From NCBI GenBank assembly GCA_013044035.1, contig JABEVE010000026.1:1-64000 (forward strand): a stretch of DNA of 64,000 bases, given 5' to 3'. Positions within the stretch are counted from its first letter, which is position 1. The number at the start of each line of letters is the position of its first letter. The notes below the pieces were generated by a model. It had not been told where the DNA came from. It made no database searches and saw only the letters and a program-made list of their open reading frames with translations. Shown here one piece after another: positions 622 to 5,049 of this stretch. The position numbers and the translations under genes are program-made. The stretch comes from Burkholderiales bacterium. Its GTDB lineage: Bacteria > Pseudomonadota > Gammaproteobacteria > Burkholderiales > Burkholderiaceae_C.

Positions 622-1170
622 ATGCAGCATTCATCGTCGCATTCCGCGGGGAACACAACTCGCTATGGGTCCGTTGCCCGTCTTTTGCACTGGACCGTTG
701 TGTTGCTTCTGGTCGGGGAATATGCCCTGGCGTGGCTGATGCCCGACATCCGCAAAGGCACACAACCGAATGGGTTGATTGCCTGGCATCTGTTCGTGGG
801 CCCGCTCATCCTGGCCGTGATGCTCCTGCGCCTGGGGTGGCGAAGCGCCGTGGGCGCCCCCGAGCCGCACCCCGGCGTTGCCTGGCAAGAACTGGCGAGC
901 AAGCTCACGCATGGCTTGCTCTATGCGCTGCTCCTGGTTTTGCCGCTTCTCGGGTGGATCAATGCCTCCACCCGGGGTTGGTCGATTCATCTCCTGGGCA
1001 TTCCGCTGCCCGCGTTGGCAAGCCAGGGTTCGACCGTCGGCCACGACCTGGGGGAATGGCACTCCACGCTGGCCTATGTCGTGCTCGGCCTCATTGGACT
1101 GCACGTGAGCGCGGCCCTCTACCACCACTGGGTGCGCAAGGACGGCCTGCTGGCCAGGATGTGGGGTTGA
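622..1170 (+). CDS. Cytochrome b561 family membrane protein
   Basis: A 182-residue four-helix integral membrane protein of the bacterial cytochrome b561 (YodB/YceJ) family, which binds two b-type hemes and moves electrons between quinol and periplasmic acceptors. Candidate heme histidines sit in RLLHW near the N-terminus, IAWHLF, GEWHST, and GLHVSAALYHHW near the C-terminus. The start at 622 leaves about 13 residues before the conserved RY..LHW segment, which is usual for the family. An in-frame ATG at 541 has a better ribosome-binding site but would overlap the previous gene and add an atypical extension. The physiological partner is unknown; the small secreted protein upstream is the only candidate nearby. 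Confidence 0.85.
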   Translation: MQHSSSHSAGNTTRYGSVARLLHWTVVLLLVGEYALAWLMPDIRKGTQPNGLIAWHLFVGPLILAVMLLRLGWRSAVGAPEPHPGVAWQELASKLTHGLLYALLLVLPLLGWINASTRGWSIHLLGIPLPALASQGSTVGHDLGEWHSTLAYVVLGLIGLHVSAALYHHWVRKDGLLARMWG

Positions 1171-1241
1171 ACATGGCGTCGGCCACGGATCAACGACGCG
1201 TCATGATCGTCACGAGGCAGCAAGCAGCCTGATCTGTCCGG

Positions 1242-1282
1242 CATGAACGTCAGGATGACGAAATCGTCACCTGACGTTCATG
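1242..1282. promoter_or_regulatory. Long hairpin containing copy A of a shared palindromic site
   Basis: Arms 1242-1254 and 1270-1282 are perfectly complementary. An inner pair, 1256-1261 with 1264-1269, extends the stem to about 19 pairs with one bulged A at 1255. The core 1253-1272 matches 3130-3149 at 18 of 20 positions, so I read it as a protein-binding site first and a terminator for the cytochrome b561 gene second. It ends 134 bases before the PAP2 start. No T-run follows. Confidence 0.55.
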
Positions 1283-1416
1283 TTCCTGTGCGAGTTCGAC
1301 GTCGAAAATATTGTCATGGTTTCTGCGCCACACGAACTTGGCGTGCTGGGCTCTTTGGGTCATTTTGTCCGACTGCGCCAGTCAATGCCTTTGTTCGTCG
1401 TCTCCGAGGCTTGCTG

Positions 1417-2244
1417 ATGATGCTGCCTGATGGTTTGAAATGTCTTGCTGGAGCGGTGGCGCTGGGCGCCTGCCTCTGCCAAGCCCAGGCCACGGCCGTG
1501 AAGCCCTCCTCTGCAGATCTCGTCGGCTTGCCCCCGTCAATCGCCTCGGCATCGGCCCCTGGTCGAGTGCTTGCCGCTGCGCCTGCGCCGCGTTCGAACT
1601 GGAGCCTTTATCCTGCAAGCCCGACGTTCGGCGTGGGCCTCGCGGACACCTACCTGATCGGTGCGGCGCTCGGGGTTCTGGACTACGCGGGGTTGCACCA
1701 CCTGGATCACCCTGTTCAGCAACAGACCTCCGGTATCTGGTCGATTGCCAAATCTCCCCAGTTTCCCGCTGAACTGATTGGCCTGACCCTGGCAGGCGCG
1801 ATCTGGGAAGGAGGAAACAGCCGTCTTGGCAAAACGCTCTGGCAGAGCGTGGACGCTGCTGCCATGGCCGGCATTTCGACACAGGCGCTGAAATGGACTT
1901 TTCAGCGGTCGCGCCCCTCGGCCACCAACAATCCCAACCAATGGTTTCAGGGCGTGCATCAGCAGAGTTTTCCCAGCGGCGATGTCTCGTCCATCACGGC
2001 CTTGGTCACGCCCATCATTTTGGAGTATCACCAAACCAACCCGGGGGTGGATGCGCTGGCGGCCATCCCGGTGTTCGACATGGCCGCACGCATCAAGGCG
2101 CATGGCCATTGGATGACCGATACCGTGGCCGGCGCCGTTGTTGGGGTTGCCAGTGGTTATTTTGCCCATCGGTTGAATTCGCCCTTCATACTCGGCTTGC
2201 TCCCGGGCGGCTTTTACATGGGTATGCGCGAAAGTTTCCGGTAG
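1417..2244 (+). CDS. PAP2-family lipid phosphatase with a variant PSGD motif
   Basis: A 275-residue envelope protein with an N-terminal signal or anchor (residues 1-25, ending CQAQA). All three PAP2 signature blocks are present in the second half. KWTFQRSRP fits K-x6-RP. SFPSGD replaces the usual PSGH. ARIKAHGHWMTD fits xR-x5-H-x3-D, with A in place of S. PAP2 enzymes remove phosphate from lipid substrates such as lipid A, undecaprenyl pyrophosphate or phosphatidate at the periplasmic face. The location near pagP suggests lipid A or another envelope lipid as substrate (inference). The His-to-Asp change in motif 2 removes the residue normally thought to protonate the leaving group, so activity is not assured. 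A longer in-frame start at 1243 lies inside the upstream hairpin and is unlikely. Confidence 0.8.
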   Translation: MMLPDGLKCLAGAVALGACLCQAQATAVKPSSADLVGLPPSIASASAPGRVLAAAPAPRSNWSLYPASPTFGVGLADTYLIGAALGVLDYAGLHHLDHPVQQQTSGIWSIAKSPQFPAELIGLTLAGAIWEGGNSRLGKTLWQSVDAAAMAGISTQALKWTFQRSRPSATNNPNQWFQGVHQQSFPSGDVSSITALVTPIILEYHQTNPGVDALAAIPVFDMAARIKAHGHWMTDTVAGAVVGVASGYFAHRLNSPFILGLLPGGFYMGMRESFR

Positions 2245-2339
2245 ACGCCTGGGCGACCGGCGCACAACACGTCATCATGAGCTTGGGAACACCCAGGCTG
2301 GCAGGGTGCAACTTGATGCAGAAATACAATCGATAACCA

Positions 2340-3095
2340 ATGCGCAGCGCACTCTTGACGAAAATCAACCATGCATTTCAAATATCGTCCAAAGTTCCAG
2401 AAATTACGCTGATTTTCTGGATTGCATGATTATTGACAACAGGGATGGGTGAGGCGACTTCGGATTATCTTGTGTCGCATTTCAACCCTTATGTTGCCGT
2501 TTGTCCTGGAGCGGTGTTTTTTTCTGGCGGCTTTGCCCTGCAGTTGGCCGTGCGGCGCTACATCGCCTGGGCCTACTGGCTGATGGTTGGCATAGCCAGT
2601 CTTTTCGGCAGGATGATGGCGGATGTGGTTCACATCGTTCTCGGCGTCCCCTATGTGTTGTCGACCCTGTTTTTCGCCATGACCCTGGCTTTTATTTTTA
2701 TTGCCTGGTGGCGCCCAGAAAAAAACCATTTCCATTCACAGCCTCCGTATTCAACGCCGAGAGTTGTTTTACAGGGCGGCCGTGATCGCCGCATTTGCTC
2801 TCGACACAGCCGCAGGTGATATGACCGCGAGCACGTTTCGTCTGGATATTCCGGATCGTCGATCTTGTTTATGGTGTTGTTTGCGTTGCCGATCATCGCT
2901 GGGGCGCGCTTGGGTTTGAACGAGATTTTGACATTCTGGTTTGCTGGTGTCATGGCGCGCCCGATGGGAGTTTCATGGGCCAACTGGCTAGACAAACCAT
3001 TGAGCATCGGCAGCCTGGGTTGGGGGGACGGTTCCATGGCCCCCGCCAACGGAGCAAGCCACGGAGTCCTGAGCCGCGCAATCCCGGGTCCGTGA
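2340..3095 (+). pseudogene. Decayed multi-pass membrane protein gene (COG4705-like)
   Basis: Three pieces in different frames together read like an uncharacterised membrane-anchored protein of the COG4705 type, recognised from memory. Translation starts at ATG 2340 (MRSALLTKIN) and reaches KVPEITLIFWIA before an in-frame TGA at 2427-2429. The same frame continues with LLTTGMGEATSDYLV to WWRPEK at about 2720. There a run of seven A's (2719-2725) appears to hold one extra base, and the reading continues in the next frame as TISIHSLRIQRRELFY through GDMTASTFRL. Near 2855-2860 a second shift restores the first frame, giving ILFMVLFALPII and GLNEILTFWF to GWGDG. After about 3040 the expected last helix is missing. 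A nonsense codon, two shifts and a lost C-terminus make this a pseudogene; only the homopolymer shift could be a sequencing error. Confidence 0.75.
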
Positions 3096-3129
3096 CACCG
3101 TCCTTGCTCGCGATCAACGGTCGCATCCT

Positions 3130-3149
3130 GGATGACGCAATCGTCATCT
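3130..3149. promoter_or_regulatory. Copy B of the shared palindromic site, upstream of the outer-membrane barrel gene
   Basis: The inverted repeat GATGACG / CGTCATC (3131-3137 and 3142-3148, spacer CAAT) lies 158 bases before the start at 3308. Its core TGACG-x-AATCGTCA is identical to 1256-1269 apart from one base. Both copies are followed within a few bases by GACGT and CATG. The similar distance to the next gene (about 145-160 bases) suggests one regulator acting on both envelope genes. Confidence 0.55.
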
Positions 3150-3307
3150 CGACGTCATGGAAATGAAGGGCATGCACACTTAATATCTTTCAAGCCGATT
3201 TCCATGGCATTTTGAAATCAATCCTTCGCACGAAACCGGCATGGACGCCAACGCTCGTCAGGTTGGCATGAATTAAATTTTTCCTTTATTTCAATTGGAA
3301 ACATCTG

Positions 3308-3793
3308 ATGAAATCGATTCAATTATTGAAGGTCTCATTATTGACAGCAGTGATCGTCGCGGTGCCGGCGGCTCATGCGAGCACCGGTTTCAACTTGGCT
3401 GCGAACATTGCTAAAACGACAACATCAGGCTATGGAAATTCATCGGATTTCGGGTTCACGGCTGGTTATGATTTGAATCCATCGCTCGGGCTGGAAGTGG
3501 GTTACGAGTCATTGATGGGCTATGAAATGACGATGTGGAGCGTGAGCGGGCTCGGTCGTTACCATCTTACTGACCATCTCAGCCTCCTTGGGCGATTGGG
3601 CTTGGCGCATTGGACCGAGAGCCCGACTGGCAGGCACAGCGCAACTGGAACCAGCCCCCTGCTTGGTTTGGGCCTGTCCTACGCTTTGACGCCGGCGATG
3701 AGCATTCGTACCGAATACCAATTCGTGCCCAATTCGGGCGCGCTCGGAACGAATCTGGATACACTTCTGGTTGGGCTGAATTATCGTTTTTGA
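3308..3793 (+). CDS. Small outer-membrane beta-barrel protein (OmpA-like/OmpW-like fold)
   Basis: A 161-residue protein with a clear signal peptide (about residues 1-24, MKSIQLLK...AAHA). Alternating amphipathic strands rich in Gly, Tyr, Leu and Thr follow, and the C-terminus is NYRF. A terminal aromatic residue is the usual recognition signal for BAM insertion. The segments SDFGFTAGYDL, LGLEVGYES, GLGRYHL, LGRLGLAHW, LGLGLSYAL and IRTEYQF read as successive strands, so an eight-stranded barrel is likely. A GGAAA ribosome-binding site precedes the ATG. The local sequence is noticeably richer in A/T than its neighbours, hinting at a different origin for 2.3-3.6 kb. Substrate or function cannot be inferred from sequence alone; the PAP2 and pagP neighbours suggest a role in outer-membrane stress. 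Confidence 0.75.
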   Translation: MKSIQLLKVSLLTAVIVAVPAAHASTGFNLAANIAKTTTSGYGNSSDFGFTAGYDLNPSLGLEVGYESLMGYEMTMWSVSGLGRYHLTDHLSLLGRLGLAHWTESPTGRHSATGTSPLLGLGLSYALTPAMSIRTEYQFVPNSGALGTNLDTLLVGLNYRF

Positions 3794-3838
3794 AGCCCGC
3801 TTCAAAAATTGAAATTTGGTTTTCCGGGTTGCTTTTTT
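3794..3838 (+). terminator. Possible rho-independent terminator after the barrel gene
   Basis: AGCCCG at 3794-3799 pairs with CGGGTT at 3825-3830 (one G-U pair). A second small stem, TTCAA-AAA-TTGAA, lies at 3801-3813 inside the loop. A T-run follows at 3833-3838. The outer stem is short and the loop long, so the call is tentative. The rest of 3839-4121 holds no gene I can support. Confidence 0.4.
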
Positions 3839-4121
3839 CAATCGTTGTGCGCCTCGACTCCTTGCGGGGCTTTCCCGCCCGTGATCGCCGAGTTCCCGTG
3901 CTGCCATGCCGCCTGTTCCGTTCACCTGAACGGGCGCCGGATGCACGGGTTCACGGCCCTGCGCTTCGAGGCCTGCGGCCCGGGCACCCGGTATGCACGC
4001 CTGCCCGACGCTCTGGGCAACGGCGCTGCCAAGATTTTTCACGCTCGTTGACGCGCCCATCGACCGGCACTGTCAACAGGCCCCGTCAACCGCCTTTCAG
4101 CTCTGCAGGATTCTGAAACCC

Positions 4122-4733
4122 ATGAAGACGCACACGCGCAAGATTGCAGAAACATCCCACGTCTATGGCGCGCCGATGCGCCCGATCGTTCTCGCCGCGT
4201 TTCTCGGCACGCTGATGCTGTTGCCACCCTCGAGCCAGGCGGGTGTGATGCATTGGGCCGATCGCGCCACGCAAAACCTCACCAACATCTACGACAACGG
4301 CACGCCCGATCTGTTCGTCACTGGCTACACCTGGCACGACCCGGCCACGTATACCGCAGCCAAGCGCGCCCAACTCAACAGCCATGCCTGGGGTCTGGGT
4401 TGGGGCAAGCACATCATCGATGCGAATGGCAACGACGAGATGATCTACGCCATGATGTTCTCCGACTCGCACCGCAACGCCGAGCCCGTGGTCGGCTACG
4501 CCAAGCAGTGGTTGTGGGACCCCGTCGGCGCCTTGCATTTCGGTGCCGGCTACACCGCGGGCATCACCTCGCGCGCCGATATATTCAAGAACATTCCATT
4601 CCCTATCGCCTTGCCGCTGGTCTCTGTGGGCTATGGCCGCTTTACCCTCTACGGGACTTTCCTGCCGAAAGTGACCAGCACGCTGAACAACGGCAATGTG
4701 GCGTTCTTCTTTGCGCGCTACGCCTTTCGCTGA
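4122..4733 (+). CDS. pagP: Lipid A palmitoyltransferase PagP
   Basis: PagP is an outer-membrane eight-stranded barrel enzyme. It moves palmitate from phospholipid to lipid A and so raises resistance to cationic peptides and membrane stress. The 203-residue product has the family signatures in order: a signal sequence ending SSQA (about residue 40), TWHDPATY with catalytic His72, AWGLGWG, MMFSDSH with Asp115 and Ser116 of the catalytic set, GYAKQWLWDP, HFGAGYTAG, LPLVSVGYG, and a C-terminal NNGNVAFFFARYAFR with terminal aromatics. The start at 4122 has a GCAGGA sequence about 11 bases upstream; an ATG at 4176 would leave a shorter, cleaner signal peptide but lacks a ribosome-binding site. A 7-bp hairpin at 4749-4766 follows without a T-run. 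Between it and 5050 I see no gene. Confidence 0.9.
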   Translation: MKTHTRKIAETSHVYGAPMRPIVLAAFLGTLMLLPPSSQAGVMHWADRATQNLTNIYDNGTPDLFVTGYTWHDPATYTAAKRAQLNSHAWGLGWGKHIIDANGNDEMIYAMMFSDSHRNAEPVVGYAKQWLWDPVGALHFGAGYTAGITSRADIFKNIPFPIALPLVSVGYGRFTLYGTFLPKVTSTLNNGNVAFFFARYAFR

Positions 4734-5049
4734 GGCCTCATTCGGCCAGCGCGGCTGTGGCCGCGCCTTGGTCCCGAGGCTCTTGAAACTTTTTCTTGCA
4801 GCCCTTGTGAAGCCATCAACCGTCCCGCGTGTCGCCGGGCTGATCATGATGGTGCTGACGAGCCGCGATTCGGTACTTAGGGCCTCGGTTTTTTGAGTGT
4901 TCCAGAATCGACCCCAGCCTCCAAGCAGCGCACAAAACTACCCCTCTCAGCCTTCCCCACATCGTGGAGGATGAGCCGGCCCCCTGCCTATGCGTGTCGA
5001 GTGATGCGAAGATGCTCGGACTGTCGCGTGCATGCCTGGGGATGAAGAC

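Follow-up and report, generated by a model that had tools for sequence, protein, structure and literature searches.

Two near-identical palindromic sites, each upstream of an envelope gene, raise the question of which regulator would act on them and in response to what signal. The sites lie in the window analyzed here, a stretch of 64,000 nucleotides that begins at a contig end of a Burkholderiales genome; the genome searched comprises 3.70 Mb in 108 contigs. A sequence-only reading of the window had taken them for binding sites of one regulator encoded elsewhere, possibly of the envelope-stress kind that answers to polymyxin or low magnesium. Direct reading confirmed the pair, site A at 1253–1272 (GGATGACGAAATCGTCACCT) and site B at 3130–3149 (GGATGACGCAATCGTCATCT), which are identical at 18 of 20 bases. 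GACGT and CATG are present downstream of both copies, as had been described (A, CTGACGTTCATG; B, CTCGACGTCATG), and the approximate distances to the genes also hold: site A is 145 bases before the PAP2 gene (ATG at 1417) and site B is 159 bases before the barrel gene (ATG at 3308). Copy A does sit inside a longer stem, at 1242–1282 (RNA fold −34 kcal/mol, z −5.2), and the RNA fold of copy B barely beats those of shuffled sequences (z −1.0). The locus is flanked by a cytochrome b561 gene upstream and by pagP downstream. Its features are as follows.

1242–1282, no strand assigned: palindrome extending beyond site A, in which imperfect half-sites flank the site to either side; recognized by its fold and by conservation in three genomes.
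1255–1270, forward strand: putative core operator of site A, ATGACG-AAAT-CGTCAC; 15/16 positions invariant in three genomes.
1277–1281, forward strand: promoter-proximal third half-site of A, TTCAT, matching GTCAT at 4/5 positions; spaced 11 bp from the right-hand box half-site.
1304–1309, forward strand: −10-like hexamer of A, GAAAAT; 44.0 bp from the box center.
1417–2244, forward strand: PAP2-superfamily phosphatase gene, putative target of site A; Pfam PF01569, E 1.1e-14.
2316–3032, forward strand: remnant of a DUF347 membrane-protein gene; three in-frame stops, open in the relative L083.
3132–3147, forward strand: putative core operator of site B, ATGACG-CAAT-CGTCAT; block 3131–3160 conserved in three genomes.
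3153–3158, forward strand: promoter-proximal third half-site of B, CGTCAT, 5/5; exactly 11 bp from 3142–3147.
3181–3186, forward strand: −10-like hexamer of B, TAATAT; 44.0 bp from the box center.
3308–3793, forward strand: OmpA-type beta-barrel gene, putative target of site B; Pfam OmpA_membrane, E 1.9e-15.

Both sites consist of a 6-4-6 inverted repeat, ATGACG-N4-CGTCAY, and a further half-site downstream; the box reads ATGACGCAATCGTCAT at B and ATGACGAAATCGTCAC at A. Site A has the weaker parts, namely the third half-site and the −10 hexamer, and its longer stem resembles the flanking half-sites around CopR boxes. The 18-base form GATGACGNAATCGTCAYC has exact matches only at A and B in this genome, with no places at one mismatch and seven at two mismatches. 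The bare core TGACGN4CGTCA was rejected as a regulon marker, since it occurs at 12 places in this genome versus 6 for the reversed control; four of the 12 were viewed in context and are A, B, and two places on contig C71, one of them within an ORF. With two mismatches allowed, the bare core is found 60 times in the window against a shuffle mean of 40, a number reached by 1 of 100 shuffles. Random scatter of the motif, which the sequence-only reading had named as an outcome that would count against it, partly holds for the bare core.

A second perfect palindrome, TGACGTATACGTCA, occurs twice in this genome (G000:C71:10274 and G000:C66:57426). The copy on C71 lies 30 bp upstream of a large ORF, and the palindrome may be the operator of another regulator.

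The informative unit is about 55 bp long and is formed by the 16-bp box, the half-site 11 bp on, and the −10-like hexamer 44 bp from the box center. Its spacing was assessed in 29 boxes hand-picked on the core, six of them A/B sites from three genomes and 23 of copper type, all oriented with the extra half-site rightward; boxes from related genomes are mutually non-independent. The set leaves out the boxes of L098, L169, and L202 and the copR box of L092, all matched by the composite pattern given below, as well as the box near the G207 regulator (L097), which is also absent from the composite matches. With a half-site defined as ≥4/5 identity to ATGAC (left side) or GTCAT (right side), 29/29 boxes have one at exactly 11 bp (23/23 copper-type boxes when the A/B sites are removed), and at most 2/29 have one at any other spacing from 7 to 16 bp. 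An NANNNT hexamer is centered exactly 44 bp from the box center in 27/29 boxes and at 43 bp in the remaining two; without the A/B sites, the hexamer is at exactly 44 bp in 21/23 copper-type boxes and at 43 in the other two. No other offset from 34 to 65 bp exceeds 6/29. Both the 11-bp and the 44-bp rule hold for every A/B site, those of this genome and those of two others (6/6).

Written as the composite pattern ATKAC-N6-GTMAY-N6-KTCA-N24-ANNNT, the unit has 100 matches in 24 of the 28 genus genomes, with 0 for the reversed control, and matches 24 of 200 family genomes, again with a control of 0; the reversed control had 0 matches over the 225 distinct genomes. There are five matches in this genome: A, B, copR/copA in both directions (contig C86), and an RND-pump promoter (C55). 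In the window, with two mismatches allowed, the composite unit is found only at A and B, both exact, where a mean of 0.15 is expected and 1 of 100 shuffles had two. A and B are among the sources of the pattern and so match it necessarily; independent support comes from the 11-bp rule in 23/23 and the 44-bp rule in 21/23 other boxes, and both rules in 6/6 A/B sites. For the full unit, random scatter is refuted by the 100 matches against a control of 0.

The downstream genes, whose listing in this genome and its relatives had been proposed, were examined for 21 of the 100 genus matches, with identities assigned by Pfam for representatives and by likeness for the rest. Fifteen of the 21 precede copper-oxidase, Cu-ATPase, YHS, SHOCT, DsbA, LTXXQ (which we take to be CpxP/Spy-type), or copR genes, the YHS match of L255 being below its cut-off; one is before a cytochrome c gene, four are before an unassigned ORF, and one is at a contig end. 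Sites A and B are also exact to the looser box ATKACRNNNNYGTMAY, a 6-4-6 repeat of ATKAC-type half-sites. A search of five genomes with this box gave 69 matches, falling on 42 places, against 7 for the reversed control. Among the 35 of 42 places examined, 14 are within called ORFs, which we take for chance, and 21 are outside: the six A/B sites, 14 places beside copper, dsb, SHOCT, or TIGR01387 genes, and one beside an unrelated ORF (the place on L197 meets the boundary of a called ORF with a doubtful start). This genome has three such places outside ORFs (A, B, and copR/copA) and five inside. Near matches in relatives are found upstream of a multicopper oxidase gene in G218 and, in G032, between a response regulator gene and a divergently oriented gene that resembles those for the outer-membrane component of RND pumps and whose G224 counterpart has Pfam OEP. 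The G032 box beside the RND-linked regulator is identical to the 16-bp core of site A of G224.

The same kind of operator is present at dsbA-type genes in G201, G214, and G205 (L200:3994, L091:1014, and L096:4360), and dsbA-type genes have a composite match in two further genomes, G202 and G223; these operators suggest that thiol-disulfide repair belongs to the copper regulon. In a genome of another genus, 55 bases (G049:C1:1638433-1638487) agree with the RND-pump promoter match of G201 at every position and with the G224 match at all but one. This identity between genera suggests that the pump locus was transferred horizontally.

A profile search for TIGR01387 (E 1e-60) detected 37 genes in 23/28 genus genomes. 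Of the 21 genes examined, 17 carry within 1500 bp upstream a 6-4-6 box scoring ≥11/12 positions, and four, one of them at a contig end, lack such a box. This genome encodes two TIGR01387 genes, both over the family cut-off, a CopR (G000:C86:12034) and an RND-linked regulator (G000:C55:8226); they are outside the window, on contigs C86 and C55, which supports the expectation of a regulator encoded elsewhere. We consider it highly probable, from the sequence comparisons, that A and B are operators of a heavy-metal response regulator of the TIGR01387 class (CopR/CusR type), each in a positively controlled promoter. The features of the class are present: the extra half-site is in phase at 11 bp (5/5 at B, 4/5 at A), the promoter layout, with a −10-like hexamer at 44.0 bp, is that of the copA, copR, and pump promoters of the genus, and regulators of the family are encoded in the same genome. 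The pair can be regarded as real, functional-looking predicted operators, and the idea that they are binding sites of one regulator is supported by the shared box, the promoter spacing, and the copper-gene company genus-wide. Our confidence in the exact acting regulator, and in the role of the target genes, is much lower than that in the operator class.

What survives of the sequence-only reading is one regulator class, encoded elsewhere; its envelope-stress kind finds no support in that form: the boxes fit the TIGR01387 class and accompany copper-gene promoters. The stress in question is more plausibly one of copper or silver, the metal being taken from the genes that accompany the boxes. That A and B serve a PhoP-, PmrA-, or CpxR-like regulator, responding to polymyxin, low magnesium, or misfolded protein, would suit the envelope nature of the putative targets and the presence of pagP downstream, but it is improbable: the boxes and the promoter spacing are those of the copper-gene promoters of the genus, and no composite match lies before pagP in the window even with two mismatches allowed. 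PhoP, PmrA, and CpxR boxes are moreover direct repeats of other sequence, unlike the inverted repeats at A and B.

On the heavy-metal reading, we infer binding, activation, the metal, and the acting regulator at A and B along the following lines, with the arrangement of dimer, half-site, and polymerase taken by analogy from the AgrR and CH34 copper studies. A membrane sensor would detect periplasmic copper (or silver), and a symmetric dimer of the regulator would sit on the 6-4-6 repeat. One more subunit would occupy the half-site 11 bp, one turn, downstream, in place of a −35 element, and RNA polymerase would be brought to the −10 hexamer, which lies 44 bp from the box center, giving predicted start sites near 1316 (A) and 3193 (B). 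From site A this would activate PAP2, along with DUF347 in genomes with an intact copy, and from site B the OmpA-like barrel, so that PAP2 and the barrel would be switched on together with the cop genes and the RND pump. The regulator might instead bind A and B and repress, in which case copper would lower PAP2 and barrel expression. There are precedents: in the available text of the sources, CzcR represses the oprD porin gene in Pseudomonas, and CopR can hinder CusR at one promoter (PMC7380067, PMC11195947). We regard repression as improbable too, as copA, Cu-ATPase, and dsbA genes are preceded by box, half-site, and −10 at the same spacing, the −10 always lying downstream of the box.

The box, the phased half-site, the fixed −10 spacing, and the copper-gene company are joined by conservation in three genomes. 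Among the 28 genus genomes, G217 holds both sites exactly, in the same order and with the same neighbor genes (L083). G224 holds both at loci about 270 kb apart (L085 and L086), where site A adjoins b561-PAP2-DUF347 (L085) and site B precedes the barrel gene next to copC and copD (L086; Pfam). Across the three genomes, block 1242–1282 is invariant at 38/41 positions versus 129/205 in the rest of the intergenic stretch (Fisher p 5.6e-5), and block 3131–3160 at 27/30 versus 98/205 around it (p 5.9e-6). By eye, the G224 sequence upstream of B is little like that of the other two genomes, and the likeness starts at the box. The spacing is kept in all three, with site A at −162 from the aligned PAP2 start and site B at −173 to −176 of the barrel. 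In the genus, 8/11 PAP2 homologs and 7/10 full-length barrel homologs are without a box at ≥11/12 positions within 400 bp upstream (the barrel count omits one fragment whose upstream part is missing); the homologs that have a box, 3/11 and 3/10, are all in close relatives, and those without are all more divergent, which is most simply explained by lineage-specific wiring. The condition that relatives keeping both genes should also keep the sites is thus borne out in the two nearest genomes and fails in more distant ones, e.g., G158. The least probable alternative, in which copy A resembles B incidentally and is an extragenic hairpin or terminator that follows the cytochrome b561 gene, can point to the 18-bp stem that A forms between two genes (z −5.2) but is very hard to sustain, given that no T run follows 1282, that A is absent from the six terminator-like sites found by scanning (6.3 expected), that B is without such a stem (z −1.0), that conservation extends to the flanking half-sites, and that copR boxes likewise lie within long palindromes.

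For the putative heavy-metal operators at A and B, the candidate regulators are CopR (C86) and the RND-linked regulator (C55). When 28 bases are compared, B shares most with the RND-type boxes (a mean of 23.0 identical bases) and less with the copR/copA divergent boxes (18.2); A has 22.5 identical bases with multicopper-oxidase boxes, 21.0 with RND-type boxes, and 16.7 with the copR/copA divergent boxes. A G-type box also precedes the G218 oxidase gene, and the two TIGR01387 genes of that genome have CopR-like scores (345–347 bits, against 322–332 for the RND-linked genes). G217 keeps both sites, yet at the E limit used its 89% complete genome is without the RND-linked regulator. Pseudomonas CopR, CusR, and CzcR cross-recognize one palindrome, according to the available text of PMC11195947.

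The barrel has OmpA as its best solved relatives (best E 7.6e-11), and the single match of PAP2 to a solved protein, LpxE, is weak (E 0.0076). The DUF347 remnant, between PAP2 and site B, has 56% identity to its open relative (L083:6628-7560). The standard PAP2 motif is PSGH. In the PAP2 protein encoded here (1417–2244; homologs L043-L048, L084, and L215-L223), the motif reads PSGD, as it does in 9/12 genus rows; of the other three, two caught another stretch and the split G224 gene gave none. Homologs from other genera of the family have PSGE in 5/5. An acidic residue thus stands in place of the usual catalytic histidine, which makes the PAP2 activity uncertain. G224 has its PAP2 gene (L085:3304-4126) divided between two frames, with the operator intact. 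A plasmid origin of 1100–4800 was considered and rejected: blastn against 72,556 plasmid records returned four short matches of 66–75% identity, the best over the DUF347 part.

Metal-induced genes of related types have been described, as far as the available text of the sources goes, as lead-upregulated UppP and DUF347 operons in Frankia metal homeostasis (PMC4531530) and as cadmium-induced PAP2 phosphatases in Pseudomonas (PMC2121137), both read as phosphate-precipitation systems. By analogy, it is possible, though doubtful, that in one lineage the copper regulon recruited a periplasmic metal-mineralization cassette of copper-induced PAP2, DUF347, and barrel. The copper-induced PAP2 would release phosphate from membrane lipids, DUF347 would export metal where intact, the metal would precipitate as phosphate outside the inner membrane, and the OmpA-type barrel, induced alongside, would remodel the outer membrane. 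Such a cassette would differ from the parallels, as described in the text available, in being under a copper two-component regulator. The broken DUF347 gene makes this reading more speculative here.

Open-licence PMC papers did not yield a link of COG4705 with copper, the open-licence PMC matches for CopR with a PAP2 copper regulon concern antibiotic resistance only, and none of the open-licence PMC matches listed treats a copper regulon of this genus. The operator class is already known; PAP2 and the barrel are likely new target genes. A box that the sequence-only reading could not match to a name is now given a class, that of a copper-type heavy-metal operator. The 55-bp promoter signature can list likely copper-regulated genes from sequence in the genus and in part of the family. 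With it, a lipid phosphatase and an OmpA-type barrel join the likely copper regulon, and envelope remodeling or phosphate precipitation under copper becomes directly testable.

Three known systems can be compared with A and B, and one of them, AgrR, presumably falls in TIGR01387. The E. coli CusR box, AAAATGACAANNTTGTCATTTT in the available text of PMC11195947, has the same TGAC-to-GTCA distance, TGACA-N4-TGTCA against TGACG-N4-CGTCA here, and differs in its A/T-rich outer bases. According to the text available of that source, the E. coli chromosome did not yield a further CusR site, unlike here, where several promoters share the box. In C. metallidurans CH34, the available text describes a conserved 37-bp putative CopR1 motif about 50 bp upstream of the start sites of the cop cluster (PMC7563307); the likeness, of description rather than of letters, is that one motif is common to many promoters. 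The experimental parallel is AgrR, an OmpR/PhoP-family metal-resistance regulator of Cupriavidus that, in the text available, binds ATKACANNNNTGTMAT, needs the inverted repeat and a promoter-proximal direct repeat for activation, and acts from just upstream of promoters in which the −35 is poor or absent, with a porin gene among its targets (PMC7380067). The AgrR box of Cupriavidus metallidurans, as described there, shares with A and B the 6-4-6 repeat, the variable 4-bp spacer, and the in-phase direct half-site. The half-sites differ, ATGACG/CGTCAT here and ATKACA/TGTMAT for AgrR, so that A and B depart from ATKACANNNNTGTMAT at the inner half-site base, and A also at the last base. Boxes with G or C at this position occur upstream of multicopper-oxidase and dsbA genes, and the change is therefore probably tolerated. 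The putative targets of A and B, PAP2 and the OmpA-type barrel, are other than those of AgrR. Both regulons would include an outer-membrane gene, a porin gene in the AgrR regulon as described and the candidate OmpA-type barrel gene here.
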